Below, in pieces: positions 14,698 to 63,758 of a stretch of DNA of 64,000 nucleotides. The notes beneath the pieces were generated by a model. That model worked only from the letters and a program-made list of their open reading frames with translations, did not search any database and was not told where the DNA came from. Position 1 is the stretch's first letter. The number at the start of each line of letters is the position of its first letter. Source of the DNA: Zygnema cylindricum. Lineage: Eukaryota > Streptophyta > Zygnematophyceae > Zygnematales > Zygnemataceae. The position numbers were made by a program, and so were the translations under genes. The stretch is from the NCBI GenBank assembly GCA_037447655.1, contig JBBHKE010001784.1, positions 248,001 to 312,000 on the forward strand, written 5' to 3'.

Positions 14698-14766
<69 letters not shown>

Positions 14767-20058: not shown

Positions 20059-20129
<71 letters not shown>

Positions 20130-31837: not shown

Positions 31838-34800
31838 TAAGTTAGGTAACAATGCGTGTTTGCGCTAACAGTTTCTGTAAATTAGGTAAAAATTCTTGTT
31901 CGTGCTAACAGTTTGTGTATTTTAGATAACATTTTTTGTTAGCGCTAATAGTTTGTGTAGTTTAAATAACAATTCTAAATAGCGCTAACAATTTTTGTAA
32001 GTTAGGTAACAATTCCTTTTAGCGCTAAGAGTTTTTGTAAGTTAGGTAACAATTCTTGTTAGTGCTAACAGTTTGTGTAAGTTAGGTTTCAATTCTTGTA
32101 AGCGCTAACAATTTGTGTAATTTAGATAACAATTATTGTTAGCGCTGTTCTGGAAGTTAGGTAACAATTCCTATTAGCACTATCAATTTGTGTAAGTTAA
32201 GTTGCAATTCTTGTTAGAGCTAACAGTTTGTGTAGTTTATATAACAATTCCTGTTAGCGCTAAGAGTTTTTGTAAGTTAGGTTTCAATTTTTGTTAGCAC
32301 TAACATTTGTGTAAGTTAGGTAAGAATTCTTGTTAGCGCTAATAGTTTGTGTAAGTTATCTAACAATTCTTGTTTGCGCTACCAGTTTGTGTAAGTTTGG
32401 AAAAAAATCTTGTTAGCACTAACAGTTTGTGTAAGTCAATTAACAATTCTTGTTAGCGCTAGCAGTTTGTGTAATTTAGATAACAATTCTTGTTAGTGCT
32501 AAGAGTTTGTGTAAGTTAGGTAACAATTTTTGTTAAGGCTAACAGTTTTTGTAAGTTAGGTAACAATTCTTATTAGCGCTTATAGTTTGATGAAGTTAGG
32601 TAACAATTCATGTTAGCTAGCACAAACAACTTGTGTAAGTTAGGTAACAATTTTTGTTAAGGCTAACAGTTTGTGTAAGTTAGGTAAGAATTCTTGTTAG
32701 CACTAACAGTTTGTGTACGTCAATTAACAATTCCTATTAGCGCTATCATTTTGTGTAATTTAGATAACAATTCTTGTTAACGCTAACAGTTTCTAAAAGT
32801 TAGGTAACAATTTTGTTTACGCCAACAGTTTGTGTAAGTTAGGTTACAATTCTTGTTAGCGCTAACAGTTTGTGCAATTTAGAAAACAATTGTTGTTAAC
32901 ATTATTATTTTCTGTAAGTTAGGTAATAATTTGTAATAGTGCTAACACTTAGTCTAAGTTAGGTCACAATTCTTTTTAGCGCTAACAGGTTGTGTAAGTT
33001 AGGTTAAAAATTTTGTTATCGCAAATAGTTTGTGTAGTTTAGATAACAATTGGTGTTAGCGCTTACAGTTTGTGTAGTTTAGAGAACAATTCTGGTTAGC
33101 GCTAACATATGTGAAATTTAGATAACAATTATTGTTAGTGCTAACAGTTTGTGTAAGTTATGTAACAGTTATTGATAGCTCTAACTGTTTGTTTAAAATA
33201 GGTAACAATTCTTGTTAGCGCTAATAGTTTGTGTAATTTAGATAACAATTCTTGTTAGCGCTAACAGATTTTGTAAGTTAGATAACAATATTTGTTATCG
33301 CTAACAATTTGTATAAGGTAGGTAACAATTCTTTTAGGGCTAACAGTTTATGTAGTTTAGATAACAAATCTTGATAGTGCTAACAGTTTGTGTACTTTAG
33401 ATAACAATTCTTGTTAGCGCTAAAAATTTGTGTAAGTTCGGTAACAATTCATGTTAGCTAGCACTAACAGTATCTGTAAGTTAAGATGTAATTCTTGTTA
33501 GCGCTAGCAACTTGTGTAATTTAGTTAACAATTTTTGTTAGCGCTAATAGTTTGTGTAAGTTAGGTAACAGTTATTGTTAGCGCTAACAATTTGTGTAAG
33601 TTAGGTAAAATTATTGTTAGCGCTTACAATTTGTGTAAGTTAGGTAACCACTCTTGTTAGTGTTAACAGTTTGTGTAAGTTTGGTTACAATTCTTCTTAG
33701 TGCTAACGGTTTGTGTAAGTTAGTTAATAATTCCTGTTAGCGCTAACAGTTTGTGTAATTTAGATTACAATTCTTGTTAACGCTAACAGTTTCTAAAAGT
33801 TAGGTAACAATATCGTTAACGCTTAGAGTTTGTGTAAGTTAGGCTACAATTCTTGTTAGCGCTAACAATTTGTGTAAGTTAGGTAACATTTTCTGTTAGC
33901 GCTAATAGTTTGTGCAATTTAGATAACAATTATTGTTAGCATTAACATTTTCTGTAAGTTAGGTAACAATTCATGGTAGCGCAAACAATTTGTGTAAGTT
34001 TGGTTACAATTTTTTTTAGCGCTAACAGTTTGTGTAAGTTAGTTAACAATTTTTGTTAGCGCTAACATATGTGTAATTGAGATAACAATTATTGTTAGTG
34101 CTAACAGTTTGTGTAAGTTATGTAACAGTTATTGTTAGCTCTAACTGTTTGTTTAAAATAGGTAACAATTCTTGTTAGCGCTAGTAGTTTGTGTAATTTA
34201 GATAACAGTTCTTGTTAGCGCTAACAGTTTGTGTACGTTAGATAACAATTTTTGTTAGCGTTAACAATTTGTGTAAATTAGGTAACAATTCTGTTTAGCG
34301 CTAACAGTTTATGTAATTTAGATAACACTTCTTGATAGCGCTAACAATTGGTGTACTTTAGATAACAATTCTTTTTAGCACTAACAATTTGTGTAAGTTA
34401 GGTAACAATTCATGTTAGCTAGCACTAATTGTTTGTGTAAGTTAGTTAACAAATCATGTTAGCGCTAACAATTTGTGTAATTTAGATAACAATTATTGTT
34501 AACGCTAACTGTTTGTGTAGGTTAGGTAATAATTCTTATTAGCGCTATTAGTTTGTGTAAGTTAGGTAACAATTCATGTAAGCGCTAACTGTTTGTGTAA
34601 GTTTGACTTCAATTCTTGTTAGCGCTAACTGTTTGTGTAAGTGAGGTAACAATTATTGTTAGCGCTATCAGTTTGTATAAGTTAGGCGGTAGCAATTTCT
34701 TTTAGCTCTAACAGTTTGTGCAAGGTAACAATACGTGTTAGCGCTAACAGTTTGTGTAATTTAGATTACAATTCTTGTTAGCGCTAACAGTTTGTGTAAA

Positions 34801-37285
34801 TTAGATAAGAATTCTTGTTAGCGCTAATAGTTTGTGTAATTTAGATAAAAAAAATTGTTTCAGCTAACAGTTTGTGTAAGTTAGGTGACAATTTGAGTTA
34901 GCGCTAACGGTTTGTGTAAGTAACATAACAATTATTCTAAGCGCTAACCGTTTGTGTAATTTAGATATGAATTCTTGTTAGCACTTAGAATTTGTGTAAG
35001 TTAGGTAACAATTCTGTTAGCACTAACAATTTGTGTTATTTAGATAAAAATTCTTGTTAGCGCTAACAGTTTGTGTAAGTTTGGTAACAATTCCTAATAG
35101 CCATAATAGTTGTGTAAGTTAGGTAGCAATTTGTGTTAGCGCTAACAGTTTGTGTAATTTAGATAACAATTCTTTTTAGCGCTTACAATTTCTTTCAATT
35201 AGGTGACAATTCCTGTTAGCGTTAATATGTTGTGTAATTTAGATTTCAATTCCTGTTGGCGCTAACAGTTTGTGTAAGTTAGCTAACAATTCTTGTTAGT
35301 GCTAAAAGTTTGTGTTAGTTAGGTAAGAATTCTTGTTAGCGCTAACAGTTTGTGTAATTTAGAAAATAATTCTTGATAGCACTAACAGTTTGTGAAATTT
35401 GTATAACAATTCCTTTTAGCAATAACAGTTTGTGTAATTTGCATAAGAATTCCAATTAGAGCTAACAATTTGTGTAAGTTAAGTAACCATTCTTGTTAGC
35501 GCAATCAGTTTGTGAAATCTAGATAAGAATTCTTGTTATTGCTAACAGTTTGTGTAATTAAGATAAGAATTACTGTTAGCAGTAACAGTTTGTGTAATTT
35601 ACATTACAATTCTAGTTAGCGCTAAGAGTTTGTGTAAGTTAGGTAACAATTAATGTTAGCACTAGTATTTTGTGTAAGTTGGATAACAATTCTTGTTAGC
35701 GCTAAGTGTTTGTGTAATTTAGATAAGAATTCTTGTTAGCAGTAACAGTTTGTGTAATATAGATATCAATTCATGTTAGCACTAACAATTTCTCTCATTT
35801 ACATAACAAATCCAGTTAGCGCTCAAAGTTTGTGTAAGTTAGGTAATTATTCATGTTAGCGCTAACAGTTTGTGTAATTTAGATAACAAATCTTGTTAGC
35901 GCTAACAATTTGTGTAAGTTAGGTAACAATTTCTGTTAGCCTTAACAATTTGTGTAAGTAAGGTAACAATTCGTGTTAGGCTAATAGTTTGTGTAATTTA
36001 GATAACAATTCTGGTTAGCGGTAACAGTTTGTGTAAATTAGGTAACAATTCCTGTAAGCGCTAACAGTTTGTGTAAACTATATATCAATTCTTGATAGCG
36101 CTAACAGTTTGTGTACTTTAGATAACAATTCTTGTTAGCGCTAACAGTTTGTGTAAGTTCGGTAACAATTCATGTTAGCTAGCACTAACGGTTTGTGTAA
36201 GTTAAGATGCAATTCTTGTTAGCGCTAGCAACTTGTGTAATTTAGTTAACAATTTTTGTTAACGCTAATAGTTTGTGTAAGTTAGGTAACAATTTTTGTT
36301 AGCGCTAACAATTTGTGTAAGTTAGGTAAAATTATTGTTAGCGCTAACAATTTGTGTAAGTTAGGTAACAATTCTTGTTAGCGCTAAAAGTTTGTGTAAG
36401 TTTGGTTACATTTCTTGTTAGCGCTAACAGTTTGTATAAGTTAGTTAACAATTCCTGTTAACGCTAACATATGTGTAATCTAGATAACAATTCTTGTTAG
36501 TGCTATGAGTTTGTGTAAGTTAGGTAACAGTTATTGTTAGCTCTAACTATTTGTTTAAAATAGGTAACAATTCTTGTTTGCGCTAGTCGTTTGTGTTATT
36601 TAGATAACACTTCCTGTTAGCGCTAACAGTTTGTGTAAGTTAGATAACAATTTTTGTTAGCGCTAACAATTTGTGTAAGTTAGGTAACAATTCTGTTTAG
36701 CGCTAACATTTTATGTAATTTAGATAACAGTTTTTGATAGCGCTTACAATTTGTGTACTTTAGATAATAATTCTTGTTAGCGCTAACAGTTTGTGTAAGT
36801 TAGGTAACAATTCATGTTTGCTAGCACTAACAGTTTGTGTAAGTTAGTTAACAATTCATGTTAGCTCTAACAATTGTGTAATTTAGATAACACTTACTGT
36901 TAGCGCTAACAGTTTGTGTAAGTTAGATAACAATTCTGTTTAGCGCTAACATTTTATGAAATTTAGATAACTGTTTTTGATAGCGCTTACAGTTTGTGTA
37001 CTTTAGATAACAATTCTTGTTAGCGTTAACAGTTTCTGTAAGTTAGGTAACAATTCCTATTAGCGCTAACAGTTTTTGTAAGTTTGGTTGCAATTCTTTT
37101 TAGCGCTAACAGTTTGTGTAAGCTAGGTAACAATTCCTGTTAGCGCTAACAGTTTGTCTAATTTAGATAACATTTCTTTTAGCACTAACAGTTTGTGTAA
37201 GTTAGGTTACCATTATTGTTAGCGCTAAATTTTTTTGTAATTTAGATAACAATTCTTGTTAGCTCTAACACTTTCTATAAGTTAG
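31838..37285 (+). repeat. 40-bp satellite, block 1 (forward)
   Basis: Tandem array of a 40-bp unit, about 136 copies by length. Each unit has the palindrome GTTAGCGCTAAC, then AGTTTGTGTAA, then either GTTAGGTAACAATTCTT or TTTAGATAACAATTCTT. Units vary by substitutions and small indels; occasional GTTAGCTAGCAC variants recur. No coding capacity. Confidence 0.97.
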
Positions 37286-38338
37286 TGAATCTCTGAGACC
37301 TCCATAGGTCCTCAAAAATGACATCTTGGAAGAAGCCTGTAGGATAAAACTGACCCCTTTGTGTTATAGCAATAATAACTGCTACCCTGGCAAAAAAACC
37401 CTTACCACCTTTACCCTTTTAAAGGCAAGACTCCCCTGAGTCGATAGCAAAAAGAATCTCTGAATTTGCTCCTCTGAATAGTAAGTTATGGAGGATCAAA
37501 TTTGACCTTTTGTACAAAAGCTCTGTGGGAGAGAGGGTCCTATCTACCAATTTTGTCTAAGTCCTATCTCTCTCACAAACTCTATCTACTGACGTACGGA
37601 CCAATCATATTACTCTTCCGTACACAAAAGTACAGCTGCGAGTGTACTTTCTGTTCGGATAATGTACGACATGCCTTAATGTCGACATGTGGTATTTCTA
37701 GATTTGCTCCCTTAATCCTTGGAGATGCCGCGATCCAATATTATTATGCCACGTGTCATCCGATGTGGCGATGACCATAAACTGCCGAAATCCTCTCACG
37801 GAATCTCTACACTCATCCCGGCCTTCTGATTAAATGCACATTTAATTGTAGTCGTAATAAATACCTCACGGTATTCGTTTCGCTATTGAAACAAATGCGA
37901 GGTACTTGTTTCATATCCGTATCGTAATATGTACTTCTTCATAACTGAACCTATGTATTCCGTATGCACTTCCCCTTAAATAAAATATCCTACATGGTAC
38001 GTTTAAATAATTATCAAACTCTATAGCATGTATCATTACTTATAGACCTAACGGATAAGATTACCGTCTACCGGTTATCTGCTGGCCGGCAGGTACCAGG
38101 ATCAAATCGTGGTTTCATCATTAAATCTTTTAGTAAATAAACTACCACTCAATAAATCAACTAATTCATTTCCCCTAAACCTCTCGATAGCCTAGGTAGC
38201 CATGGCTCTAGCTTCCTCTCCAATTTCTCAGTGACTGCGACAAGTGTGGGAGTTGGAGAGAGAAGTTAGAGATAGATGCCTCGGCATCTTTCTATTTAGA
38301 CCTAGAAAATACTTAAAAGAGAACCATCAATTTCTACA
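37286..38338 (-). mobile_element. Solo copia LTR, 1053 bp, with 5-bp target duplication
   Basis: Read on the minus strand it runs from TGTAGAAATTGATGG to GGTCTCAGAGATTCA (TG...CA). GTTAG at 37281-37285 is repeated at 38339-38343, so this is a complete insertion into the satellite. No internal region remains, as after LTR-LTR recombination. It contains the GTAC cluster and the ATTCGTTTC...GAAACAAAT hairpin shared by the other LTRs. Confidence 0.93.
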
Positions 38339-40704
38339 GTTAGGTAACAATTCTTATTAGCGCTATCCGTTTGTGTAAGTTAGGTTACAATTCTTGTAAG
38401 CGCTAACAGTTGGTGTAAGTTAGGTAACAATTCCTGTTAGCGCTAACACATTGTGTAGTTTAGATAACAATTCTTGTTAGCGCTAACAATTTGTGTACTT
38501 TGGGTAATAATTCATGTTAGCATTAACAGTTTGTGTAAATTTTGTTAGAATTCTTGTTAGCGGTAACAGTTTGTGTAAGGGTGATAACAATTCTTGTTAG
38601 CGCCAACAGTTTGTGTAATTTAGGTAATAATTCCTTTAGCGCTAACAGTTTGTGTAGTTTAGATAACAATTTATGTTAGCGCTTACAGTTTGTGTAATTT
38701 AGATAACAATTCCAGTTAGCGCTAACAATTAGTGTAATTTAAATGACAATACTTGATAGCATTAACTATTTTTGTAAGTTAGGTAACAATTCCTGTTAGT
38801 GCTAACAATTTGTGTAATTTAGATAACAATTCTTGTAAGCTCTAACATTTTTTGTAAATTAGGTAAAAATTCCTGTTAGCGCTAACTGTTTGTGTAAGTA
38901 AGGTAACAATTCTTGTTAGCGCTAACAGTTTGTGTAGTTTAGATAACAATTCTATTTAGCGCTAGAGTTTGTGTAAGTTAGGTAACAATTCTTGTTAGCG
39001 TTAACACATTGTGTAGTTAAGATAACAAATCCTGTTAGCGCTAACAGTTTTTATAAGTAAGGTTACAATTCTTGTTAGCGCTAACAGTTTGTGTAATTTA
39101 AATAACAATTCTTGTTAGCGCTAACACATTGTGTAGTTTAGATAACAATTCCCGTTACCGCTAACATATTGTGTAAGTTAGGTTACAGTTCTTGTTTGCC
39201 CTAACAGTTTATGTTAGATAGGTTACAATTCTTGTTAGCGCTAACAGTTTGTGTAAGTTAGGTAAAAATTTCTGTTAGCGATAAGAGTTTGTGTAGTTAA
39301 GATAACGATTCTTGTTAGCACTTTCAGTTTGTGTAAGTTAGGTACCAATTATTGTTAGCGCTTACAGTTTGTGTAAGTAAGGTAACATTTCTTGTAAGCG
39401 TTAACAGTTTGTGTGAGTTTGGTAATAATTCCTATCAGCGCTAACAGTTTGTGAAGTTTAGATAACAATTCCTGTTAGCGCTTACAATTTGTGTAGTTTA
39501 GATAACAATTTTTGTTCGCGCTAACAGTCTATGTAGTTTAGATAACAATTCCTGTTAGCCCTTAAAGTTTGTATAGTTTAGATACCAATTCTTGTTAGCG
39601 CTAACAATTTTTGTAAGTTAGGTAACATATATTGTTAGCGCAAACAGTTTTTGTAAGTTAGGTAACAATTCTTGTTAGCGCTAACAGTTTGTGTAAGTTA
39701 GGTAACATTTCTTGTTAGCGCTAACAGTTTGTGTAAGTTAGGTAACATTTCTTGTAAGCGCTAGCAGTTTGTGTAAGTTTGGTAACAATTCCTCTGAACG
39801 CTAATAGTTTGTGTAGTTTAGATAACAATTCCTGATAGCGCTTACAATTTGTTTAATTTAGATAACAATTCCTCTTATTAGCGCTAACAGTTTGTATAAG
39901 TTAGGTAACAATTCTTGTTAGCGCAAAGAGTTTGTGTTGTTTAAATATTAATTTATGTTATCGCTTACATTTTCTATAGTTTAGATAACAATTCATGTTA
40001 ACGCTAACAGTTTGTGTAAGTTAAGATACAATTCTTGATAGCGTTAGCAGTTTGTGTAATTTAGATAACAATTTTTGTTAGAGCTAATAGTTTGTGTAAG
40101 TTAGGTAACAATTCTTGTTAGCGCTAACAGTTTGTGTAAGTTAGGTAACAAATCTAGTTAGCGCTAACAATTTGTGTAAGTTTGGTTAAAATTATTGTTA
40201 GCGCTAATAGTTTGTGTAAGTCAGTTAACAATTACTGTTAGAGCTAACTGTTTGTGTAAGTTTGGTTTCAATTCTTCCCTAGAGCTAACAGTTTGTGTTA
40301 GTTAGGTAACAATTATTGTTTGCGCTAAAAGTATGTGTATGTTTGGTAACAATTCCCGTTAGCGCTAACTGTTTGTGTAAGATTTGTTTCAATTCTTGCT
40401 AGCGCTTTTAGTTTGTGTAAGTTAGGTAACAATTATCGTTTGCGCTAACAGTTTGTGTTATATAGATAACAATTCTTGTTAGCGCTAACAGTTTGTGTAA
40501 TTTAGATATCAATTATTGTTAGCGCTAACAGTTTGTGTAAGTTAGGTTACAATTCTTGTTAGCGCTAATAGTTTGTGTAAGTAAGGTAACAATTCATGTT
40601 AGCTAGCACTAACTGTTTGTGTAAGTTACTTAACTATTCCTGTTAGGGCTAACAATTTGTGTAATTTTGAAAACAATTCTTGTTATCGTTAACTGTTTCT
40701 AAAA
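38339..40704 (+). repeat. 40-bp satellite, block 2 (forward)
   Basis: Continuation of block 1 after the solo LTR, same orientation, about 59 units, ending at the assembly gap. Confidence 0.97.
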
Positions 40705-40783
40705 NNNNNNNNNNNNNNNNNNNNNNNNNNNNNNNNNNNNNNNNNNNNNNNNNNNNNNNNNNNNNNNNNNNNNNNNNNNNNNN
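40705..40783. other. Assembly gap (79 N)
   Basis: Run of N between forward satellite and copia pol. Satellite orientation differs on the two sides, so the join should not be trusted. Confidence 0.99.
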
Positions 40784-41600
40784 GCTTTGAGGTAACCTCA
40801 AAGATGAGTACGGAATGCGGGGGGCAAAAGGGTGTTTAACTCCAATGGAGTTTCGGCAGAAGTTAGAGGGAGAAGAGAGAGAACCAGGTGTTATTGTTAG
40901 CGAGTATTTAGAATCAGAGGAGAATGATCCTATGACAATAATACCTTATAGACAGATAGTGGGAAGCTTAATATACTTCATGAACTGTACCCGTCTTGAC
41001 ATTGCTACAGCGGTCGGGGTACTGAGTAGGAGTCTAGAAAATCCGAGAAAATATGATCTTGATGCAGCAAAGAGAGTCTTAAGATATTTGGCAGGAACTA
41101 AAGATCTCAAACTCACTGTAGGCGGAGGAGAAGTCAAGCTGCAAACATGGAGTGATGCAAGCTATGGCGACATGCCAAGCCGGAAATTCACCACGGGATT
41201 TGTTCTACAAATTGGGAACGGTACTTGTTGTTGGAGCAGCAAACTTCAAAAGGTTACAGCACAGTGGACAATGGAGTCAGAATATATGGCATCAAGCTTG
41301 GCCCTCAAAGAACTCTTATGGGTAAAATCCATGTTACAAGAACTAGGATACATGCAAGCTGGTCCACAGGTGATCTGGTGTGATAACCAGGCTGCCATTG
41401 CCATTGCTTCTAACTCGAGTCATCACTTCAAAAGCAAGCACATGGATGTACGATTACACTTTGTAAGAGAAAATGTGTTCTCTATAATGATTAAATTATG
41501 TTATTTGCCAGATGCAAAAATGATTGTTGATATGCTCACTAAAGCTCTTCCTGCTCCTAAGCTAAAGTACTGTAGGAACGCATTGGGATTGAAAGAATAG
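40784..41600 (+). pseudogene. Ty1/copia pol fragment (RT end and RNase H)
   Basis: Open reading to a TAG. It contains the end of reverse transcriptase (PYRQIVGSLIYFMNCTRLDI, then AAKRVLRYLAGT) and a full copia RNase H: WSDASYGD, MESEYMASS, WCDNQAAIAIA, KHMDVRLHFVRE and DMLTKALPAPKLKYCRNALG. The acidic catalytic residues are in place. The 5' part (gag, protease, integrase, RT palm with YVDD) is missing because of the gap. It is followed at 41746-41760 by the purine-rich AAAGCTTTAGGGAAG and an LTR, so it is the 3' end of an element. Confidence 0.92.
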
Positions 41601-41760
41601 TTTAATTATAGTAGTGCCATACTGCCACTTCGCGATAAGTCCACCATTGAGATGTAGTGGGACTGGGTGACTTGCTAATTGCAATACTGCTATGCTGCGA
41701 TGCAGAGCTAGTTTATCACCGCAGCTGCGCTGGTATACTGAGTCTAAAGCTTTAGGGAAG

Positions 41761-42445
41761 TGTTGTATTTTTGGAAAGCTTTCAGTCTCACCGCAGTAGC
41801 TCAGCTGCTATAGAGACAGAGGAGCGCAGCAACAGAGCAGCGCAGCAGCCGAGCAGCGCAGCAACAGAGCAGCGCAGCAGCCGAGCAGCGCAGCATCGAA
41901 GCTGCAACACAGACAGGACAACGCAACCACGATTAAATTTGATATGGTCCGTACGGACAACGCATCGTCTGATATTCTTAATATGATTCTATACAGGATA
42001 GAGCAACTGCCAGAGATATGATTCTAGTCAACTTAGTGGGTAACTCAGTGGTAACTTATTGGGTAACTCAGTGGTAGCTTAGTGATAGCTCAGTGGTAGC
42101 TTGACAGACTACTGGTAGCTTGGTGGTTTAACGTACCTCTCAAGTAAACTGGTGTAGCTAGTTCAACACAAGTGTAAGACTTAAGACTCAGAACATATCT
42201 TGTATCCAGACTTCCAAGTAGTAAAACTAGAGACAGTTTTTGGGAAACTTCTGAGTAATATTTCTTGAGTGTTGTCGAGTCAATTGTGCTGAAACTTTGG
42301 GAGTTGTCTGTGTTTATGCCACTCTATATTCTAATATAGTTTTGAGAGGTTTGAATGCTTGTTTAAGAATTGGTGAGCACTTTAAAACAGCTGTTTGGTA
42401 GGATTCTTGATAACGTCTGAGAGTGTAACATGTCTACTTCTACTA
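41761..42445 (+). repeat. Copia LTR (second family), plus strand
   Basis: Starts TGTTGTATTTTTGGAAAGCT directly after the polypurine tract. It contains a GCAGCGCAGCA/ACAGAGCAGC minisatellite (41820-41895) and a GGTAACTCAGTGGTAGCTT repeat (42040-42125). The 3' end is not exact; homology with the copy at 30925-31837 continues to the ATGTCTACTTC at about 42430 that probably starts gag. Confidence 0.7.
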
Positions 42446-42644: not shown

Positions 42645-42687
42645 TACTACTGCTGCTCCTCCCCGTGCACCGGTGGTCGTAGAATAA

Positions 42688-51600: not shown

Positions 51601-53393
51601 CTTTAACAAGAATTGTAACCTAACTCACACAAACTGTTACCGCTAACAAATTTTGTTATTTAATCTACACAAACTTTTAGGGCTAACAAAAATTGTGATC
51701 TAAACTACACAAATTGTAAGCACTAAAAGGAATTGTAACCTAACTTACACAAACTGTTATCGCTACTAGAAACTGTAGCCTAACTTACACAAATTGTTAG
51801 AGCTAGCAAGAATTGTTATCTAAACTACAGAAACTGATGGCGCTAACATGAATTGTTAACTAACTTACAAAAACTATTAGCACTAAAAAGAATTTTCACC
51901 TAAATTACACAAACTGTTACTAACAAGAATTGTAACCTAAATTACAAAAACTGTTAACGCTTACAAGAATTGTTATCTAAATTACTCAAACTGTTAGCGC
52001 TAAAAGGAATTGATACCTAAATTACACAAATTTTTATCGCTAACAGGAATTGTTACCTAACTTACACAAATTGGTAGCTCTAACAAAAATTGTAACATAA
52101 CTTACACAAACTGCTAACACTAACAATAATTGTTATCTAAATTGCACAAACTGTTATCTCTAATTGTAATTGTTACCTAACTTACACAAAGTGTTAGCGA
52201 TAAAAGAAATTGGTACCTAAATTACACAAATTTTTATCGCTAACAGGAATTGTTACCTAACTTACAGAATTTATAAACGCTAATAAGAATTGTTATCTAA
52301 ATTACACAAACTATTATTGCTAGTAGGATTTGTTATCTAAACTATAGAAAACTATTGGCGCTAACAGGAATTGTTAACTAACTTACAAAAACTTTCAGCG
52401 CTAAGAGGAATTTTTACCTAAATTACACAAACTGTTAGCGCTAACTAGAATTGTTACCTAAATTACAAAAAATGTTAGCCCTAATAAGAATTGTTATCTA
52501 AATTACACAAACTCCTAGCGCTAACAAGAATTGTTATCTAAATTACACAAACTATTAGCGCTAACAAGAATTGTTACCAAACTTACACAAATTATTAGCG
52601 TTAACAATAATTGTAACCTAATTTACACAAACTGTTAGAGCTAACAAGAATTTTAATCTAAACTACACAAACTGTTAGCGTTAACAAGAATTGTTATCTA
52701 AACTAAACAAACTGTTAGCGCTAAAAGGAATTGATACCTAAATTACACGAATTTTTATCGTTAACAGGTATTGTTACCTAACTTACACAAATAGTTAGCG
52801 CTAACAAGAATTATAACCTAACTTACACAAAGTGTTAACGCTAAAAGGAATTGTTATATAAATTACACAAATTGTTAACGCTAACATTAATTGTTATCTA
52901 AACTACACAAACTGTTAGCGCTAACAAGAATTGTTACCTAACTTGCAATACCCTGTTAGCGCTCTGAAAAATTGTTATCTAAATTATACAAACTAGTGCT
53001 AACAAGAATTGTTACCTAAATTACACAATTTGTTAGCGCTCACAATAATTGTTACCTAACTTACACAAACTGTTAGCGCTCACAGGAATTGTTACCTAAA
53101 CTACACAAACAGTTAGCGCTAACAAGAATTGTAACCTAACTTACACAAAATTGTTAGCGCTAACAACAATTATTATCTTAATACCACAAAAAATTTCCGC
53201 TAAAAGATATTGTTATCTAAATTACACAAAGTGTTAGCGCTAACAAAAATTGTTACCTAACTTACACCAATTGTTACTGTTAACAGGAAATGTAACCTTA
53301 CTTACACAAACTATTAGCGCTAACATGAATTGTAACCTAAATAACAAAACATATTAGCAGTAACAAGAATTGTTACCTTACTTACACAAACTG
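42688..53393 (-). repeat. 40-bp satellite, block 3 (reverse)
   Basis: Same unit as blocks 1-2 in opposite orientation, about 260 copies. Typical words are GTTAGCGCTAAC, AAGAATTGTTACCTAAC and TTACACAAACT. Two stretches (about 43130-43640 and 47990-48190) are ragged, with many short deletions. Higher-order similarity appears from about 50 kb on. Interrupted at 44301-44476. Confidence 0.97.
44301..44476. other. Insertion of about 176 bp in the satellite
   Basis: Non-satellite, purine-rich on the plus strand (GAGAGGAG words), starting after AATTGTAACCT and ending before CGCTAACAGG. I see no inverted ends or target duplication; origin unknown. Confidence 0.6.
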
Positions 53394-53477
53394 TGCAATT
53401 CTGTGTCCTCCATTGGACTACAGAATACAGGAAGCCTCTAGGTAGTATTTAACTAACCCACTTTAAGCCACGACCAC
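51001..53477. repeat. Segmental duplication within the satellite, copy 1
   Basis: Matches 56391-58851 nearly base for base, including rare unit variants (ACACAAACTCCTAGCGC) and the 84-bp LTR start at its right end. One 17-bp difference lies near 51640/57038. Similarity continues leftward less regularly. Confidence 0.88.
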
Positions 53478-54427
53478 TGCTGCCCAAGAAGGCAAATTGA
53501 CAATTTGACTGCACCCCTGTGCAGCTTGGACTCCCCTGAGTCCGTAGCAAAAAGAATCACTAAAAACGGCCAACCAACCGATAAGTTATAGGGTGGCAAA
53601 AAAATGCCAATTTATACAAACTCTCAAAGAGAGAGGACTATCTACCTAAATTTTCCTAAGTCCTAGTTTTTCCTAATTCCCTCTCACAGCTCCTATCTAC
53701 TGCCTGTACTAACCAATCACAAAACTATATTGTACTAGAAAGTACTACTGCCGATGTACTTTCTGTACGGCCTCTGTACGACAAAGCCATTATGTGGACG
53801 CGTGTCCACTTTCCACTCGTCCGTACGCTCCTCGGAATTCCCGCGACCGAATGATGTCTTCCCACGTGGCGCTAGGTCATGCCACGTCACTAAATGCCAA
53901 AATGACCATTCCGCGATTTCGGCGATGATGCGCGCCGTTAGATTTGACGCGAAATTCAATCTCGGCCGTAATAAATACTTGCGCGATATTTGTTTCGCTG
54001 TCGAAACAAAATGCGCGATATCCATTTCAAACAAGTACAGTACTTACTGTATCTATGTGTGGCGTTAAGGGTTTCAGTTAAATGAATCTAGTACATTAGA
54101 ATAGTTTAATTAATAATGAAACTCTATATCTCCTAACGGACTTCTACGACAGACTGGTTAGAGCTAACGGCTACGCCGCGCTCTGCTGGTCGGGGGTTCG
54201 AGTCCTACCGGACTCAACCTTTTGTTGAGAGTGGCTTAAGCCACTCTTTAGTCCTTCTTATGGAGTTAAAGGCAGCCATGGCTCCATTGCTCTCTCTCTC
54301 TCTCCTTCAGTGACTACAACAAGTATGGGGGCGAGAGAGAGAGAGAAGAGATAGAGGCAAGCTGCCTACATTTTCTTTTCTAATAGATTTAGACCTAGAA
54401 AATATACAAAAACTACTTATTTCAACA
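53394..54427 (-). repeat. Copia LTR, 1034 bp, minus strand
   Basis: On the minus strand it starts TGTTGAAATAAGTAG after the polypurine tract AAAATAAAGGGAG and ends GGACACAGAATTGCA. It contains the GTAC cluster, a GATATTTGTTTCG...CGAAACAAA hairpin, a CCACGTGGC box and, on its opposite strand, a tRNA-like stretch (54152-54212). It is the 3' LTR of the remnant at 54456-55620. Confidence 0.88.
54152..54212 (+). promoter_or_regulatory. tRNA-like A box/B box pair, antisense in LTR
   Basis: CTGGTTAGAGC followed 30 bases later by GGTTCGAGTCC. The second matches the pol III B box exactly; the first matches the end of an A box. A CGGCTACGCCG hairpin lies between, where an anticodon arm would be. Acceptor-stem pairing is poor, so I do not call a functional tRNA. 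Confidence 0.45.
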
Positions 54428-54455
54428 CTCCCTTTATTTTCTAGTCTAATTTTAA

Positions 54456-55620
54456 TTTTTATTTTAACCCGCATTTCTCTCGACAATATTTTAATTTAGG
54501 AGAGGGCACAGGTTTGGTCATCATGTTAGCCACCATTTCTTCATCAAGTCTATACACAAGATTTAAAATTTTATTTTCAACTTTTTCTCTTACGAAGCTT
54601 AATCTTATGTCCATATGTTTTGCTTTGAAATGATGTTTTGGATTGGCTGCGATTGCGATTGCAGCTTGATTATCGCAAAAGATTTCTTGCACTCCCTCCT
54701 TCATATATCCCAGTTCTTGCAGTAAGGACTTGACCCACATCAACTCTTTCACAGCAGAACAAGAGGCCATGTACTCAGCCTCCATAGTGGACTAAGCAAC
54801 CACCGTTTGTTGCTTACTGCTCCAACAGCAAGCACCTTCCCCAACATACTACACATACCCAGAAGTACATCGTCTCATAGGTGCGTCCCCATAACTGGCA
54901 TCACTCCAAGTAGTGATGTCAGTGTGCTCCCCTCCCAAATGCAACCATAACTCTCTAGTTCCCACCAGATATCTCATGACTCTCTTGGCTGCCTCCTAAT
55001 CCCTCTTCCTAGGATCATTAAGACTCCTACTGAGTACACCAACTGCCGCCGCTATGTCCGGCCTGGTACAATTCATAAAATAGATTAAGCTTCCTACGAC
55101 TTGTCTATAAGGGATAGACTTCATGAACTCTCTCTTCGTGGACTCATCTGATCGTCTAAGATAATCATTCCTCCTTCTACACCCCCATCACTTACTTTTT
55201 TCAAGTCCATGGGAGTGGTACAACTGTTAGCATTTTCCATCTGGAATTTCTCAAGCATATTACCTATTGCTTCTTTCTGAGTAAGTCTGATAATCTTCTT
55301 CCCTCTATCTCTCTCCATTTGGATCCCCAAAATATATTTTGCCTCCCCTAAATCCTTCATATCAAATCTGCCCCTAAGATCTCTCTTTAGCCTATTGATA
55401 TTCTCCAAAGACTTACTTAACACAAGCAGATCATCCACATAAATTGCAATAAAAATGACACCATTCTCATCTTCAAACATATAGATAGAATGGTCAGAGC
55501 TGATCCGGATGTATCCCAGATCGGTGAGAAACTCATCTAGTTTCTTATTCCACTGTCGGGGAGCCTGTTTCAGTTCATTTAAGGACTTTATGAGCCTGCA
55601 GACTTTGCTTTCTTCTCCTT
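54456..55620 (-). pseudogene. Ty1/copia RT-RNase H remnant, 5'-truncated
   Basis: From 55620 leftward: KSLNELKQAPRQWN, then IYVDDLLVLS (RT active site, intact YVDD), KYILGIQMERD, and RNase H with MEAEYMASCSAVKEL, FCDNQAAIAIA, KHMDIRLSFVRE and the tail PKLKYCREKCGLK. The frame is broken: a shift near 55130 and stops such as TAG at 54793. The sequence upstream of RT is gone and satellite abuts directly at about 55621. Confidence 0.9.
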
Positions 55621-58600
55621 CTACACAAATTGTTAGAGCTAGCAGGAATTGTTATCTAAACTACAGAAACTGATGGCGCTAACAGGAATTGTTAACTAAC
55701 TTAAAAAAACTGTTAGCGCAAAAAAAAAATTTCACCTAAATTACACAAACTTTTACTAACAAGAATTGTAACCTAAATTACAAAAACTGTTAACGCTAAC
55801 AAGAAATGTTATCTAAATTACGCAAACTGTTAGCGCTAACAAGAATTGTTATCTAAACTACACAAATTGTTAGCTCTAAAAGGAATTGATACCTAAATTA
55901 CACAAATTTTTATCGCTAACAGGAATTGTTACCTAACTTACACAAATTGTTAGCGCTAACAAAAAATGTAACCTAACTTTCACAAGTTGCTAACACTAAC
56001 AATAATTGTTATCTAAATTGCACAAACTGTTATGTCTAATTGTAATTGTTACCTAACTTACACAAAGTGTTAGCGCTAAAAGAAATTGGAACCTAATTTA
56101 CTCAAACTGTTAGCGCTAACAGGATTTTTTTTTTAAACTACACAAATTATTAGCGCTAAATGGAATGGTTACCTAACTCACACATACTGTTAGCGCTAAC
56201 ATAAACTGTAACCTAAGTTACACAAACTGTTAGCACTAGCAGGAATTGTTATCTAAACTACAAAAACTGTTAGCGCTAACAGGAATTGTTAACTAATTTA
56301 CAAAAACTGTTAGCGCTAATAGGAATTTTCACCTAAATTACACAAACTGTTAGCGCTAACAAGAATAGACACCTATCTTACACAAACTGTTAGCGCTAAC
56401 AATAATTGTTATCTAAATTACACAAACATTTAGCGTTAACGGAATTGTTACCAAACTTACACAAATTATCAGCGCTAACCAGAATTGTAACCTAATTTAC
56501 ACAAATTGTTAGAGCTAACAAGAAATGTTATCTAAATTGCACAAAATGATAGCGTTAACATGAATTGTTATCTAAACTACACAAAATGTTAGCGCTAAAA
56601 AGAATTGATACCTAAATTACACGAATTTTTATCGCTAACAAGAATTGTCACCTAACTTACACAAATTGTTAGCGCTAACAAATATTGTAACCTAACTAAC
56701 ACAAACTGTTAACACTAACAATAATTGATATCTAAATTGCACAAACTTTTAGCGCTAACGGAATTGTTACCAAACTTACACAAATTATTAGAGCTAACAA
56801 GAATTGTAACCTAATTTACACAAATTGTTAGAGCTAACAAGAATGGGTACCTAAATTACACGAATTTTTATCGCTAACAGGAATTGTTACCTAACTTACA
56901 CAAACTGTCATCGTTAACAAGAATTGTCACCTAACTTATAGAAATTATATACGCTAATAAAAATTGTTATCTAAATTTCACAAGCTATTAGCTTTAACAA
57001 GAATTGTAACCTAACTCACACAAACTGTTACCGCTAACAAAACACAAACTTTTAGGGCTAACAAAAATTGTGATCTAAACTACACAAATTGTAAGCACTA
57101 AAAGGAATTGTTACCTAACTTACACAAACTGTTATCGCTACTAGAAACTGTAACCTAACTTACACAAATTGTTAGAGCTAGCAAGAATTGTTATCTAAAC
57201 TACAGAAACTGATGGCGCTAACAGGAATTGTTAACTAACTTACAAAAACTATTAGCACTAAAAAGAATTTTCACCTAAATTACACAAACTGTTACTAACA
57301 AGAATTGTAACCTAAATTACAAAAACTGTTAACGCTTACAAGAATTGTTATCTAAATTACTCAAACTGTTAGCGCTAAAAGGAATTGATACCTAAATTAC
57401 ACAAATTTTTATCGCTAACAGGAATTGTTACCTAACTTACACAAATTGGTAGCTCTAACAAAAATTGTAACATAACTTACACAAACTGCTAACACTAACA
57501 ATAATTGTTATCTAAATTGCACAAACTGTTATCTCTAATTGTAATTGTTACCTAAATTACACAAAGTGTTAGCGTTAAAAGTAATTGGTACCTAAATTAC
57601 ACAAATTTTTATCGCTAACAGGAATTGTTACCTAACTTACAGAATTTATAAACGCTAATATGAATTGTTATCTAAATTAAACAAACTGTTATTGCTAGTA
57701 GGAATTGTTATGTAAACTATAGAAAACTATTGGCGCTAACAGGAATTGTTAACTAACTTACAAAAACTTTCAGCGCTAAGAGGAATTTTTACCTAAATTA
57801 CACAAACTGTTAGCGCTAACTAGAATTGTTACCTAAATTACAAAAAATGTTAGCCCTAATAAGAATTGTTATCTAAATTACACAAACTCCTAGCGCTAAC
57901 AAGAATTGTTATCTAAATTACACAAACTATTAGCGCTAACAAGAATTGTTACCAAACTTACACAAATTATTAGCGTTAACAATAATTGTAACCTAATTTA
58001 CACAAACTGTTAGAGCTAACAAGAATTTTAATCTAAACTACACAAACTGTTAGCGTTAACAAGAATTGTTATCTAAACTACACAAACTGTTAGCGCTAAA
58101 AGGAATTGATACCTAAATTACACGAATTTTTATCGTTAACAGGTATTGTTACCTAACTTACACAAATAGTTAGCGCTAACAAGAATTATAACCTAACTTA
58201 CACAAAGTGTTAACGCTAAAAGGAATTGTTATATAAATTACACAAATTGTTAACGCTAACATTAATTGTTATCTAAACTACACAAACTGTTAGCGCTAAC
58301 AAGAATTGTTACCTAACTTGCAATACCCTGTTAGCGCTCTGAAAAATTGTTATCTAAATTATACAAACTAGTGCTAACAAGAATTGTTACCTAAATTACA
58401 CAATTTGTTAGCGCTCACAATAATTGTTACCTAACTTACACAAACTGTTAGCGCTCACAGGAATTGTTACCTAAACTACACAAACAGTTAGCGCTAACAA
58501 GAATTGTAACCTAACTTACACAAAATTGTTAGCGCTAACAACAATTATTATCTTAATACCACAAAAAATTTCCGCTAAAAGATATTGTTATCTAAATTAC

Positions 58601-58767
58601 ACAAAGTGTTAGCGCTAACAAAAATTGTTACCTAACTTACACCAATTGTTACTGTTAACAGGAAATGTAACCTTACTTACACAAACTATTAGCGCTAACA
58701 TGAATTGTAACCTAAATAACAAAACATATTAGCAGTAACAAGAATTGTTACCTTACTTACACAAACT
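55621..58767 (-). repeat. 40-bp satellite, block 4 (reverse)
   Basis: About 79 units in the orientation of block 3. The right 2.4 kb duplicates 51.0-53.4 kb; the left part resembles 51.8-52.3 kb and 57.2-57.6 kb, showing nested higher-order repeats. Confidence 0.96.
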
Positions 58768-58851
58768 GTGCAATTCTGTGTCCTCCATTGGACTACAGAA
58801 TACAGGAAGCCTCTAGGTAGTATTTAACTAACCCACTTTAAGCCACGACCA
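56391..58851. repeat. Segmental duplication within the satellite, copy 2
   Basis: Partner of 51001-53477. It ends with the same 84 bp of LTR (58768-58851), cut at GCCACGACC and joined there to an unrelated plus-strand copia tail. Confidence 0.88.
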
Positions 58852-59044: not shown

Positions 59045-60231
59045 TGTTGATATTTGAATATTTTCTAGGTCTGTATTAGGATAGAAAAAGAGCTAAGGCA
59101 GTCTGCCTCTAACTCCCCTTTCCAAGCCCCCACACTTGTTGTAGTCACTCAAGGCTAGATAGGGAGCTAGAGCCATGGCTGTCTAAGCTCTCTAGAGAAG
59201 ACAAGGAGTAAATTAGGTAGACTTACCAAAAGTTAGTTGACGGACCCAGGAATTGATCTTTGTACCTGTTGTCCGTCAATTCACATTAGCCGTTAGCTCT
59301 AGCCGTTAAGTATAGGACACATATTACGATGTATAGAGTTTAATAAATATATAAATTGTTACATGTAGATTAATTCGTTTAACGGCAAATAGATACTTAG
59401 TACATAGATACAATTTGATTTAGTACGAAGTACAATATGGGGACAAAACGGATACCGCGCATTTGTTTCGATAGCAAAACAAATACCGCGCGTCGAATTT
59501 CAGCGGCTAGGATTATAGCCGGTTTTGATCCGACGGCCACGATAGGCGCCGCGATCACGAATAAGGCACTTTTGGCGTTTTACGGTATTTTGCCACGTCA
59601 CATGACAGATGACACGTGGCGTGATAACATTGGATTACGGGAATTTCGGAGATTACAGGAACTAATCCTGATTTGACATGTGTCGACATTTTGGCCATGT
59701 CGATAATGGCCGTACAGAAAGTACACCCGTACCTGTACTTTTCTGTACGACACAGTGTTTTGATTGGTGCCGTACTTCAGTAGATAGATTTTTAGAGAGG
59801 GAATAGGACTTCAAATTTTTTGGGTAGGTAGCTGCCTCTCCCAGAGAGCACCCTGTATAAATGGCAAACTTTGCCCAAACATAACTATCAATTTACTTGA
59901 CCATTTTCAGTGATTCTTTTTGCTTCGGACTTAAGGGAGTCCACGCTACACAAAGGTGTAGAGGGTCAGAGTTTTTGTCTGCCAGTGTGGCTGCATTTCT
60001 AAGGGAAAGTCAAAGTTGGTGAATGTGTCCAAATCTCATATCCTAACTTTGCATTCTGTGTTGGAACTGAGCACACAGAAAGTGTTATTTCACAAGGGTG
60101 AATCTATATTGCGGTTTTGACTGTCAAAGGGTCAGTCACTTGGGTTTATATTAACTTGGAGTCAGCAGTATCTAGATTAGCTTCTTTTGGATCTGCATAC
60201 TTTGAGGGCCAATGGAGGTCTCAGAGTTTTA
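59045..60231 (+). repeat. Copia LTR, 1187 bp (5' LTR)
   Basis: TGTTGATA...TCAGAGTTTTA (terminal CA mutated to TA). Features: a CGCGCATTTGTTT...AAACAAATACCGCGCG hairpin (59456-59492), a G-box (GACACGTGGC, about 59608-59617), seven GTAC cores in about 70 bp from 59711, a reversed CCAAT box (TGATTGGT) and TGTATAAATGGC as a TATA box near 59852. It matches 61346-62532, apparently without difference over the first 710 bp or so. Confidence 0.93.
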
Positions 60232-60247
60232 GGTTATGGGCCCACCA
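60232..60247 (+). promoter_or_regulatory. Primer-binding site for the initiator tRNA-Met anticodon arm
   Basis: GGTTATGGGCCCACCA, adjoining the 5' LTR, is the reverse complement of the anticodon-arm region of plant initiator tRNA-Met (TGGTGGGCCCATAACC, from memory). Drosophila copia primes from a half-tRNA at the equivalent place. The usual plant 3'-end site (TGGTATCAGAGC) is absent. Confidence 0.85.
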
Positions 60248-60259
60248 TCTAGGGTGCCT

Positions 60260-61216
60260 ATGTTCGATAGAACAAACTTCACTTATTCGGAGTTTACAAT
60301 GGCGGGATTGCTTTTCGAGAAGAACTTATGGGGAATAGTTTCGGGACAAGTGAGATGTCCGCCACCTGGATTTGGAGGAGCTTACTATGGAGAATCATCT
60401 GAGGCTGTCTTGAATATCAACCGGAGTTCAGATGCAACGGAAGGTGAAGGGAAAAACCGATCCGTAGATGGGGAAGAATGGGAGAAGGGAAAAGGAACAC
60501 CGATGGTGAGGGGAGCTAAGCTCTCGACTATGGTTCTATTTGGAGGGTTTAAAACAGAAGAAAATGACAGAAAAATATGGGAATACAAAAATACTATAGC
60601 AAAGTATCTCATACTTAGAAACGTGTCTAAGTCCATAGCTATCACTCTTATAAACTTAATGATGTCTTCAGAGATATGGGAAACACTAAGTCAGATTTAT
60701 AAGAGTAAGACTATTCAGAGGCAGCAATTTGTAAACCAAGATATAGATGCCTATGTTTTTAAAGGAGGTAGCATGATAGAGTTTTGCAATGATATTGCTG
60801 CGCTATATGTTGAGTTTACTAGTGCGGGATATGTAGAATCTGAGGAGAGGAAGATTAATACACTACTGATGAAACTCCCAGAAGAGTACGAAAACATCAT
60901 TTGTCGTATGCAGGCAATGGATGGCTCCTCATGGACTTGGAGCTTTACCATGGGGATAATTCTTGTAAGGGAAAGCACTTTGGAGCTTCGTAGGGGAAGT
61001 GACAGGGTGAATGCATTTACAGCTGGTGGTGATTGGCGGAAGCGTGATGAGAGGAACGGCAGTGACGAGCGGAAGCGTGATGAGAGGAACGGTGGTGACG
61101 AGCGGAAGCGTGATGAGAGGAAGAAAGACAAAGGTAAACCTTATCGGAACTTTGGTGGAAAAAGAGGGAGAGGAAAAGACACGGGAGCTTTGAAATTATC
61201 ATTTCAGTTCATTTAA
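60260..61216 (+). pseudogene. Copia gag, fused by deletion to the element's 3' tail
   Basis: Open frame in the UBN2/copia gag style: FDRTNFTYSEFTMAGLLFE near the start, then KIWEYKNTIAKYLILRN, SSEIWETLSQIY, EERKINTLLMKLPEEYENII, then a tandem RKRDERNGxDE repeat. The CCHC zinc knuckle, protease, integrase, RT and RNase H are absent; at about 61190 gag runs into the sequence otherwise found just before the polypurine tract. An in-frame ATG at 60236 lies inside the primer site, so the ATG at 60260 is the better start. The product could be made but cannot mobilise itself. Confidence 0.85.
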
Positions 61217-61345
61217 TGCACTGTGTTAAATACTTAAGTTTTATGAAAGGAAAAGGAAAAAGGAAAAAGAAAAGGAAAAAAGGGAGGGGGTGTTTGTTAC
61301 TTGTTTGTGGAAGTTGAAAGAAAATAGACTAGAAAATAAGGGGAG

Positions 61346-62532
61346 TGTTGATATTTGAATATTTTCTAGGTCTGTATTAGGATAGAAAAAGAGCTAAGGC
61401 AGTCTGCCTCTAACTCCCCTTTCCAAGCCCCCACACTTGTTGTAGTCACTCAAGGCTAGATAGGGAGCTAGAGCCATGGCTGTCTAAGCTCTCTAGAGAA
61501 GACAAGGAGTAAATTAGGTAGACTTACCAAAAGTTAGTTGACGGACCCAGGAATTGATCTTTGTACCTGTTGTCCGTCAATTCACATTAGCCGTTAGCTC
61601 TAGCCGTTAAGTATAGGACACATATTACGATGTATAGAGTTTAATAAATATATAAATTGTTACATGTAGATTAATTCGTTTAACGGCAAATAGATACTTA
61701 GTACATAGATACAATTTGATTTAGTACGAAGTACAATATGGGGACAAAACGGATACCGCGCATTTGTTTCGATAGCAAAACAAATACCGCGCGTCGAATT
61801 TCAGCGGCTAGGATTATAGCCGGTTTTGATCCGACGGCCACGATAGGCGCCGCGATCACGAATAAGGCACTTTTGGCGTTTTACGGTATTTTGCCACGTC
61901 ACATGACAGATGACACGTGGCGTGATAACATTGGATTACGGGAATTTCGGAGATTACAGGAACTAATCCTGATTTGACATGTGTCGACATTTTGGCCATG
62001 TCGATAATGGCCGTACAGAAAGTACACCCGTACCTGTACTTTTCTGTACGACACAATAATTTGATTGGTGCCGTACTTCAGTAGATAGAGTTTTAGAGAG
62101 GGAATAGGACTTAGAAAATTTTGGGTAGGTAGCTGCCTCTCCCAGAGAGCACCATGCATAAATGGCAAACTTTGCCCAACCATAACTATCAATTTACTTA
62201 ACCATTTTCAGTGATTCTTTTTGCTGCGGACTAAGGGGAATCCACGCTACACAAAGGTGTAGTCGGTCAGAGTTTTTGTTAGCCAGGGTGGCTGCATTTC
62301 TAAGGGAAAGTCAAAGTGGGTGAATGTGTCCAAATCTCATATTCTAACTTTGCATTCTGTGGTGGAACCGAGAACACAGAAAGTGTTATTTCACAAGGGT
62401 GAAAACATATTGTGGTTCTAACTCTCAAGGGGTCAATCACTTGGGTTTATATTAAATTGGAGTCGGCACTATCTAGATTAGCTTCTTTTGGATCTCCATA
62501 CTCTGAGGGCCTATGGAGGTCTCAGAGTTTCA
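61346..62532 (+). repeat. Copia LTR, 1187 bp (3' LTR)
   Basis: TGTTGATA...CAGAGTTTCA, followed by satellite beginning CTAAC. Same length as the 5' LTR; after about 62050 it differs at many positions (TGTATAAATGG against TGCATAAATGG, for example). Confidence 0.93.
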
Positions 62533-62697
62533 CTAACAAGAAGTGTTACCAAACTTACACAAATTGTTAGCAATAACTGGAATTGTTACCCAAGTTACAC
62601 AAACTATTAGGGCTAACAAGAATTGTAACCTAACTTACAGAAACTGTCAGCGCTAACAAGAACAATTATCTAAATTACGCAAACTATTAGCGCTAAC
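62533..62697 (-). repeat. 40-bp satellite, block 5 (reverse)
   Basis: About four units, squeezed between two LTRs of opposite orientation. It begins CTAAC and ends CTAAC. Confidence 0.95.
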
Positions 62698-63745: not shown

Positions 63746-63758
63746 CTCCCCTTATTTT

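Follow-up and report, generated by a model that had tools for sequence, protein, structure and literature searches.

The stretch of DNA analysed here (64,000 nucleotides, hereafter the window) carries a long tandem array of a 40-bp unit. We consider it probable that this unit belongs to an old dispersed satellite family of a land-plant or streptophyte-type genome, and that the family behaves in an ordinary way and is not a protein-binding device. It is a new satellite family of an already known kind. The first-pass annotation had suggested that a dyad every 40 bp could bind a dimeric protein or form cruciforms, and the criterion set beforehand for that idea was that the palindrome be better conserved than the other parts of the unit. 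We find that it is conserved no better than the remaining unit.

A dispersed satellite with a 40-bp unit

About 21.8 kb within 31838-62697 consists of a tandem 40-bp unit containing GTTAGCGCTAAC (Table 1). The period-40 rows reported by TRF in the window are 31838-40698, 42690-53394, 55622-58769 (two rows) and 62534-62691. The five blocks sum to 21,823 bp (approximately 21.5 kb in the first estimate) and are mainly one satellite split by Ty1/copia LTR elements. Blocks 1-2 and blocks 3-5 have opposite orientations, with the 79-N gap and a copia element between the two groups.

Table 1. Features of the satellite region, in window coordinates.
Feature	Position	Strand	Remarks
Satellite block 1	31838..37285	+	40-bp units, orientation GTTAGCGCTAACAGTTTGTGTAAGTTAGGTAACAATTCTT; TRF; 137 monomers
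Target-site duplication (TSD) GTTAG, left copy	37281..37285	+	
Solo copia-type LTR, family D, inside satellite	37286..38338	-	TG...CA ends; TSD both sides; joined site restores 40-bp unit; 77% to LTR at 62698
Satellite block 2	38339..40698	+	TRF; starts with right TSD copy GTTAG (38339-38343)
Assembly gap, 79 N	40705..40783		
Fragment of copia pol (its RNase H end); the element has LTR family B	40791..41600	+	Open frame
LTR family B	41763..42689	+	End adjoins satellite at CTAAC
Satellite block 3	42690..53393	-	Opposite orientation; split by 169-bp non-satellite stretch (44302-44470)
Truncated copia element	53394..55621	-	LTR family C 53394-54427; RNase H + RT 55124-55651 joined straight to satellite at 55622
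Satellite block 4	55622..58768	-	TRF
Rearranged copia element	59045..62532	+	LTR family A 59045-60231; PBS-like GGTTATGGGCCC; gag ORF 60233-61216; second LTR A 61346-62532; LTRs 96.5% identical
Satellite block 5	62533..62697	-	Between two elements; CTAAC at both ends
Start of 6445-bp copia-type element	62698..64000	-	Two family-D LTRs, 94.5% identical; reaches C1336:317142; CTAAC both sides

There are 103 exact copies of GTTAGCGCTAAC in the window, versus a mean of 0.01 in 100 shuffles, and 6295 in the whole 353-Mb assembly, versus 19 for the reversed control. In the same assembly, a 47-mer from the unit is found on 21 contigs, and the satellite is present on at least 23 of the 2689 contigs, reaching tens of kb at some loci. 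The unit thus shows both properties by which a satellite is recognised, long head-to-tail arrays of one unit and high copy across many loci, and we infer a total of about 1.3 Mb.

Calculated from 3384 near-complete units (of 3571 monomers, 187 are dropped as incomplete or because they carry long inserts), the consensus palindrome has 14 bp, TGTTAGCGCTAACA, with the flanking T at 0.94 and the flanking A at 0.88. A perfect 12-bp palindrome had been assigned to each unit, and this holds for the consensus but not for individual copies: the exact 12-mer is present in only 107 of 538 aligned near-complete units, when 85-97 (depending on how gaps are counted) would be expected with independent columns. 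The second half-site, placed about 25 bp away, does exist, but it starts 23 columns on and has many variants, among them GTTAGGTAAC in 69 of the 538 units and TTTAGATAAC in 96. The two intermixed unit types are also there: mutual information is greatest, by a wide margin, between columns 24 and 29 (0.311 vs. a median of 0.013). Similarity between the two halves of the unit is weak, being equalled by 28 of 2000 shuffles.

A two-unit profile search of the masked window finds no satellite beyond the arrays. That the satellite derives from copia LTRs or inner parts is rejected, since the profile matches nothing there. Neither Rfam at gathering thresholds nor a tRNA scan reports any match in the window.

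The first-pass annotation knew of no described satellite with this 40-bp unit, and an exact-word literature search, with Repbase outside its scope, agrees in finding no printed description. The printed matches listed are each to a single 10-mer, in papers that by title are on other subjects. One 19-mer of the unit has a single match in prokaryote genomes (Kribbella), at chance level by our estimate, and none in viral contigs. In the excerpted text of the Physcomitrella satellite paper (PMC6302065), none of six short words of the unit is printed; that paper, on a non-vascular plant, likewise describes tandem repeats, with monomers of 27-217 bp. As excerpted, the Sanger/PacBio pipeline of a broad 2013 survey (PMC4053949) dropped units shorter than 50 bp, and with that floor it would have missed a 40-bp satellite.

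Copia elements and their insertion sites

Six LTR insertions have an identical 5-bp duplication on each side, and joining their flanks restores an intact unit. The marks of Ty1/copia elements (LTRs with TG...CA, a 5-bp TSD, and copia RT or gag) are spread over the elements: each mark is seen in one or another of them, and not every element shows the full set. Pfam reports RVT_2 in the truncated element (E 9.6e-36) and Retrotran_gag_2 in the gag ORF of the rearranged one (E 1.2e-18). The pol fragment at 40791..41600 has no Pfam match itself; its best protein relatives are named ribonuclease H, many of them with RVT_2. Protein relatives of the copia elements are a mixture from plants, algae and metagenomes, with top matches 47% and 46% identical, and the protein search finds no relatives of gag. 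The LTR is followed by GGTTATGGGCCCACC, a putative half-tRNA-Met primer site. Copia lineages with a primer site complementary to half tRNA-Met include Osser, Bryco and Gymco-II, according to the excerpted text of PMC6317226.

The junctions between elements and satellite cluster modestly at a few unit phases (26 junctions in 141 kb, P 0.009; the 20 outside the window, P 0.027), with the excess at columns 1-5/8-12 and 21-25. At this density, a few hundred such junctions would be expected across the genome. These 26 were chosen by eye, and junctions without a recognisable LTR end were excluded by eye before the count (for example C37 7.5k, 10.9k and 27.8k; C49 40.5k, 41.4k and 69.7k; C1536 101.4k; C1336 318.7k), with the duplicate insertion C37 42410 counted once. 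The junction C1167 is placed by the program at column 39, which gives the P of 0.009, and by eye at column 21, which gives 0.001; the P of 0.027 for the outside junctions uses column 21.

Within the window, GTTAG/CTAAC is used by four of the six insertion events (P 1.8e-5, or about 1.2e-4 allowing any 5-mer). Outside the window, the palindrome arm is hit by 4 of 20 (1 expected; nominal P 0.016, or 0.058 counting the third GTTAG site), and with so few of the outside events at the arm we reject a strict site-specificity of copia for GTTAG/CTAAC and retain a preference at most. Exact ends of LTR-A number 4767 genome-wide, and they are dispersed. Among 40 of these ends elsewhere, nearly the first 40 by order of contigs, the exact primer site comes next in 11. 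The other 29 run into different sequence, which in about 4 resembles a mutated primer site and in none starts with GTTAG or CTAAC.

For plant LTR elements, the excerpted text of PMC6911290 describes targets such as ANGTT-TSD-AACNT of Tos17, with a weak palindrome preference. Similarly, the copia elements here stand at preferred phases in and near the palindrome, but here the duplication is often one palindrome arm (GTTAG/CTAAC) or TAAGT, and this preference is only partial. Phased insertions would make it possible to test cleanly how copia integrase chooses its target, as an identical 40-bp target would be present some tens of thousands of times in the genome.

Divergence between units

The mean unit-unit difference is 16-26% in 10 of 11 regions and in all four large blocks of the window, and higher in contig C426, which has mixed orientations. 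Concerted evolution, in which neighbours are more alike than distant copies, is typical of satellites, if not strictly defining. Here, the identity at lag 1 equals the mean of all lags in block 1 (0.780 vs. 0.783) and block 3 (0.741 vs. 0.742), and is higher by 0.02 in block 2 (0.778 vs. 0.758) and by 0.007 in block 4 (0.765 vs. 0.758). Identity within contigs is 0.768-0.839 in 10 of 11 regions (0.683 in C426), and between contigs it is 0.774. The sole homogenisation that we see is block duplication at 90-99% identity; in the window, 56168-58851 is a duplicate of 50777-53476 (97-99%). Because neighbours are almost as different as distant units, units probably mutate independently, and the main route by which the array is renewed would be that entire blocks are duplicated from time to time.

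The founding unit would already have contained the palindrome, and was perhaps itself a duplicated half-unit of about 20 bp. Ty1/copia elements insert, leave 5-bp target duplications and partly shrink to solo LTRs, cutting the arrays into blocks. Blocks differ in orientation, and in one case the orientation flips right within an array. Because the core is self-complementary, each unit can pair with any other on its strand, and such pairing may help slippage, block duplication and inversion.

CpG observed/expected ratios in the arrays are 0.69-0.93, that is, there is no depletion, and the core CG of the palindrome is not specially decayed. A lack of CpG depletion would be unusual in methylated plant heterochromatin, and it counts against our best explanation. 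The role of the satellite, if any, would be that of bulk heterochromatin (pericentromeric or similar), and not of a code in the dyad.

Folding and the centromere question

Single strands of the array fold beyond shuffles. In eight of eight stretches hand-picked for their many exact palindromes, z is -2.0 to -7.5, versus +1.8 to -1.3 in four controls. In 40 random array stretches the mean z is -3.18, with 30 below -2, versus a mean of -0.77, with 8 below -2, in 40 random control stretches from 1-30000, a contrast weaker than with the hand-picked stretches, yet still clear. The folding lends partial support to the earlier suggestion of cruciforms, but the long stems in the structures displayed mostly join two units, and are not one-unit cruciforms. 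Selected secondary structure would also give a folding excess, and we count this against our best explanation.

Could this be the centromere satellite of this plant? We regard as unlikely a short dyad-rich array whose hairpins or cruciforms assist in positioning CENH3 and whose copia elements reside in the centromere. It would be in keeping with the arrays on at least 23 contigs, with the nested copia insertions and solo LTRs, with the folding, and with the proposal that dyad symmetry marks centromeres without CENP-B boxes, found in the excerpted text of PMC9070824, which also tells how Kasinathan and Henikoff discussed centromere satellites rich in dyads. As in those satellites, short inverted repeats recur in the array with predicted non-B structure, but in this array the dyad is no better conserved than the other columns. 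Moreover, a xyloglucan fucosyltransferase ORF (12441-12734) lies about 19 kb from the array and its duplicate (17799-18095) about 14 kb from it, and the genome-wide dispersal of LTR-A means that this family at least is not centromere-bound. The centromeres of Allium fistulosum (PMC7644871, as excerpted) similarly have tandem arrays with retrotransposon insertions; in contrast, the unit here is one of 40 bp and not a long one, and the elements are Ty1/copia. If the arrays were centromeric, they would give a plant centromere unit below the 50-bp floor of the 2013 survey (PMC4053949, as excerpted). More doubtful still is that a plant or streptophyte-alga centromere rests on this 40-bp self-complementary satellite, structured by inter-unit pairing and not by a box bound within one unit, with copia integrating at fixed phases (the GTTAG/CTAAC arm, TAAGT) and with satellite and retroelement thereby shaping each other.

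Conservation of the palindrome

In the window, the consensus is kept at 0.870 in the palindrome columns versus 0.861 in the rest of the unit, rank 16 of the 40 cyclic 12-column windows. For the 3384 units, which come from 11 contigs, the values are 0.872 and 0.868 (rank 21 of 40). Since C426, with its orientation change, gives badly aligned units, we repeated the calculation without it, and obtained 0.872 versus 0.876, rank 23 of 40. This flat conservation across the 40-bp unit speaks against a selected dyad; in a CENP-B-box-like system the motif would be better conserved than its surroundings in the unit, and here it is not.

Perfect palindromes of any sequence are in excess over column shuffles, 111 versus 91 (sd 7.7) in the window and 712 versus 635 (sd 17.7) in the 3384 units. 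But other 12-column windows show the exact consensus in similar excess over independence (ranks 12 and 22 of 40 for the palindrome). With an equal excess of intact stretches elsewhere in the unit, we read the palindrome excess as a sign that certain units are better preserved over their whole length. Complementary double changes are slightly above shuffles in two of the six dyad pairs, 1-12 (92 vs. 69) and 4-9 (9 vs. 4), and do not exceed expectation in the remaining four, being below it in 5-8 and 6-7. It is very improbable, then, that selection maintains the dyad as the binding site of a dimeric protein (a CENP-B-like box), even with a 14-bp consensus palindrome recurring every 40 bp and with these small excesses in its favour. 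As the palindrome is kept no better than its surroundings, we infer that no sequence-specific dimer need be assumed.

Finally, it is hardly credible that the array stems from an assembly error or from low-complexity DNA scaffolded wrongly: the 79-N gap does lie beside the orientation flip, and 51667-53476 does reappear at 57042-58851 with 99.3% identity, but the unit is found on many contigs, where the transposon insertions and the duplications are clean, and in C426 the orientation switches directly inside the array, near 14.25 kb, at AATT and with no gap.

The satellite and its unit

The array is a genuine, abundant satellite of ordinary type that copia elements have cut into blocks. TRF reports a period of 40 in four intervals, three of them large and the fourth small, and GTTAGCGCTAAC occurs 103 times in the window, where 0.01 copies would be expected. 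Splitting the five blocks by wrap-around alignment gives 553 monomers (538 nearly complete) with the consensus GTTAGCGCTAACAGTTTGTGTAAGTTAGGTAACAATTCTT, in which the palindrome is 14 bp long, TGTTAGCGCTAACA. The two unit types described in the first-pass annotation correspond to columns 24 and 29 (G..G or T..A), which covary far above other pairs (mutual information 0.311, median 0.013). The likeness between the two unit halves (GTTAG-G-TAACA-TT) is equalled by 28 of 2000 shuffles, so that derivation from a duplicated 20-bp unit is plausible, not proven. At 13.1-13.8 kb of contig C2145 (locus L069), the array decays: its units become short and irregular, and small pieces of non-satellite sequence appear among them.

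The palindrome 12-mer occurs 6295 times in the assembly (352,776,454 bases in 2689 contigs), against 19 for a reversed control. Scaling this count by the window density (103 in 21.8 kb), we infer a total of about 1.3 Mb, or 0.4% of the assembly. An exact search for a 47-mer from the unit finds it 31 times, spread over 21 contigs; with C37 and the window's own contig C1336, at least 23 contigs carry the satellite.

Within the literature covered by exact-word searches, the satellite is apparently undescribed, as had been proposed. Long words of the unit found no match; shorter words, among the matches listed, gave single 10-mers only, under titles on other subjects and none as a satellite. The words searched are also absent from a Physcomitrella satellite paper (PMC6302065). 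A 282-species survey (PMC4053949) dropped units under 50 bp in its Sanger/PacBio pipeline, and it reports that tandem repeats are scarce in green algae, a moss and a liverwort, seven basal plants in all.

Is the palindrome conserved?

The first-pass annotation suggested that a dyad every 40 bp could bind a dimeric protein or form cruciforms, and gave as refuting evidence a palindrome kept no better than the remainder of the unit; the alignments show just that. In the window, the consensus base is kept at 0.870 in the 12 palindrome columns and 0.861 in the other 28, and the palindrome ranks 16th among 40 cyclic 12-column windows. A wider set of 11 regions (141,259 bp of satellite within 299,558 bp; 3384 of 3571 monomers used) gives 0.872, 0.868 and rank 21. 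Removing contig C426, which has mixed orientation, gives 0.872, 0.876 and rank 23. The palindrome is thus no better conserved than its surroundings.

Two observations point in the opposite direction. Perfect palindromes, whatever their sequence, exceed column shuffles, both in the window (111 vs. 91, sd 7.7) and in the 3384 units (712 vs. 635, sd 17.7), and complementary double changes are slightly above shuffles in pairs 1-12 (92 vs. 69) and 4-9 (9 vs. 4); pairs 5-8 and 6-7 fall below expectation. Intact consensus stretches, however, are above independence across most of the unit (for the three sets, the palindrome takes rank 12, 22 and 15 among 40 windows), so units better kept as wholes explain most of the palindrome excess. 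Nor did the 3384 units reveal any special decay of the central CG: transitions occur in 7.5% (C6) and 8.2% (G7) of units, similar to other C/G columns. On this evidence the palindrome is one feature of the unit rather than a demonstrated device.

Folded as single-stranded DNA, eight hand-picked 150-nt array stretches have z from -2.0 to -7.5, and four controls +1.76, -0.86, -0.58 and -1.34. Forty random array stretches average -3.18 (30 below -2), vs. -0.77 (8 below -2) for 40 from positions 1-30000. In the printed structures most long stems pair palindromes of two different units, as expected when a tandemly repeated core is self-complementary; selection is not needed. Such between-unit pairing may matter for slippage and inversion.

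Copia elements at the breaks

The array breaks are copia elements.

Array junctions in the window
Position	Feature	Flanking sequence	Remark
31837	LTR end adjoining array	TAAGT	
37286-38338	Solo LTR	GTTAG both sides	Joined flanks give a normal unit
42689	LTR-B end	CTAAC	
53394	LTR end adjoining array	AACTG	
55622	Block edge without LTR end		Broken RT gene fused to satellite
62532	LTR-A end	CTAAC	
62698 to C1336:317142	Copia element, 6445 bp	CTAAC both sides	LTRs 94.5% identical

GGTTATGGGCCC immediately follows the 5′ LTR of the 6445-bp element. LTR families A, C and D are related (64-77%). LTR-A is dispersed, since an exact search of the assembly finds its 3′ end 4767 times (2459 + 2308, against 13 + 5 for a control). 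The LTR-A copies at 59045-60231 and 61346-62532 differ by 41 substitutions, 18 of them transitions and 4 in CpG context. Together with little-depleted CpG (observed/expected 0.69-0.93 in arrays, 0.84 in the window), this is a hint that cytosines in these repeats are little methylated. These copies lie in a tandem (inner end, LTR, gag, inner end, LTR) at 58852-62532, fused to a broken LTR-C at 58851, an arrangement due either to recombination between elements or to a join made in assembly. LTR-C carries, at about 54130-54215 on the strand opposite the element, what we take to be a tRNA-like stretch (B-box-like GGTTCGAGTCC, A-box-like TGGTTAGAGC); ARAGORN with bacterial settings finds no tRNA there.

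Six events have identical flanking 5-bp duplications and intact empty sites. GTTAG/CTAAC accounts for 3.4% of array 5-mers, and four of the six window insertions are at this sequence. For a set of 26 junctions, picked by eye and each showing a recognisable LTR end, the start column is 21 in four cases, 1 in four and 8 in three, giving 17 coincident pairs vs. 8.1 expected (P 0.009; P 0.001 with one misplaced junction reset by eye). The 20 junctions outside the six window events give 10 pairs vs. 4.7 (P 0.027), and 4 of these 20 are in a palindrome arm vs. 1 expected. Given this weaker excess, insertion phase is probably non-random, and the strong window figure is partly luck.

Turnover and orientation

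Block duplications are the visible form of renewal: 50777-53476 with 56168-58851 (97-99%), and 46046-46988 with 49301-50248 (90%). In blocks 1 and 3, neighbouring units show no gain in identity over distant units; the gain is 0.02 in block 2 and 0.007 in block 4. Ten of the 11 regions have within-contig identities of 0.768-0.839, and identity averages 0.774 between contigs; the C426 value, 0.683, comes from an alignment spoiled by mixed orientation. Orientation changes between blocks in C1336 and C37 across transposons or a gap; in C426, near 14.25 kb (locus L064), the array switches directly at AATT, with neither.

Window content

The window, positions 248001-312000 of C1336, is eukaryotic: a Ty1/copia reverse transcriptase (RVT_2, E 9.6e-36) and a gag of copia type (E 1.2e-18) occur in it alongside an exon-sized xyloglucan fucosyltransferase ORF (E 2.4e-9), which makes a land plant or streptophyte alga the likely source. 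The fucosyltransferase ORF is carried by a 3.35-kb direct duplication (12114-15456 and 17475-20822, 99.8%), reflecting either a gene copied very recently or a duplicate created by the assembly. A TTTCC-type polypyrimidine repeat of about 475 bp lies at 23991-24465.
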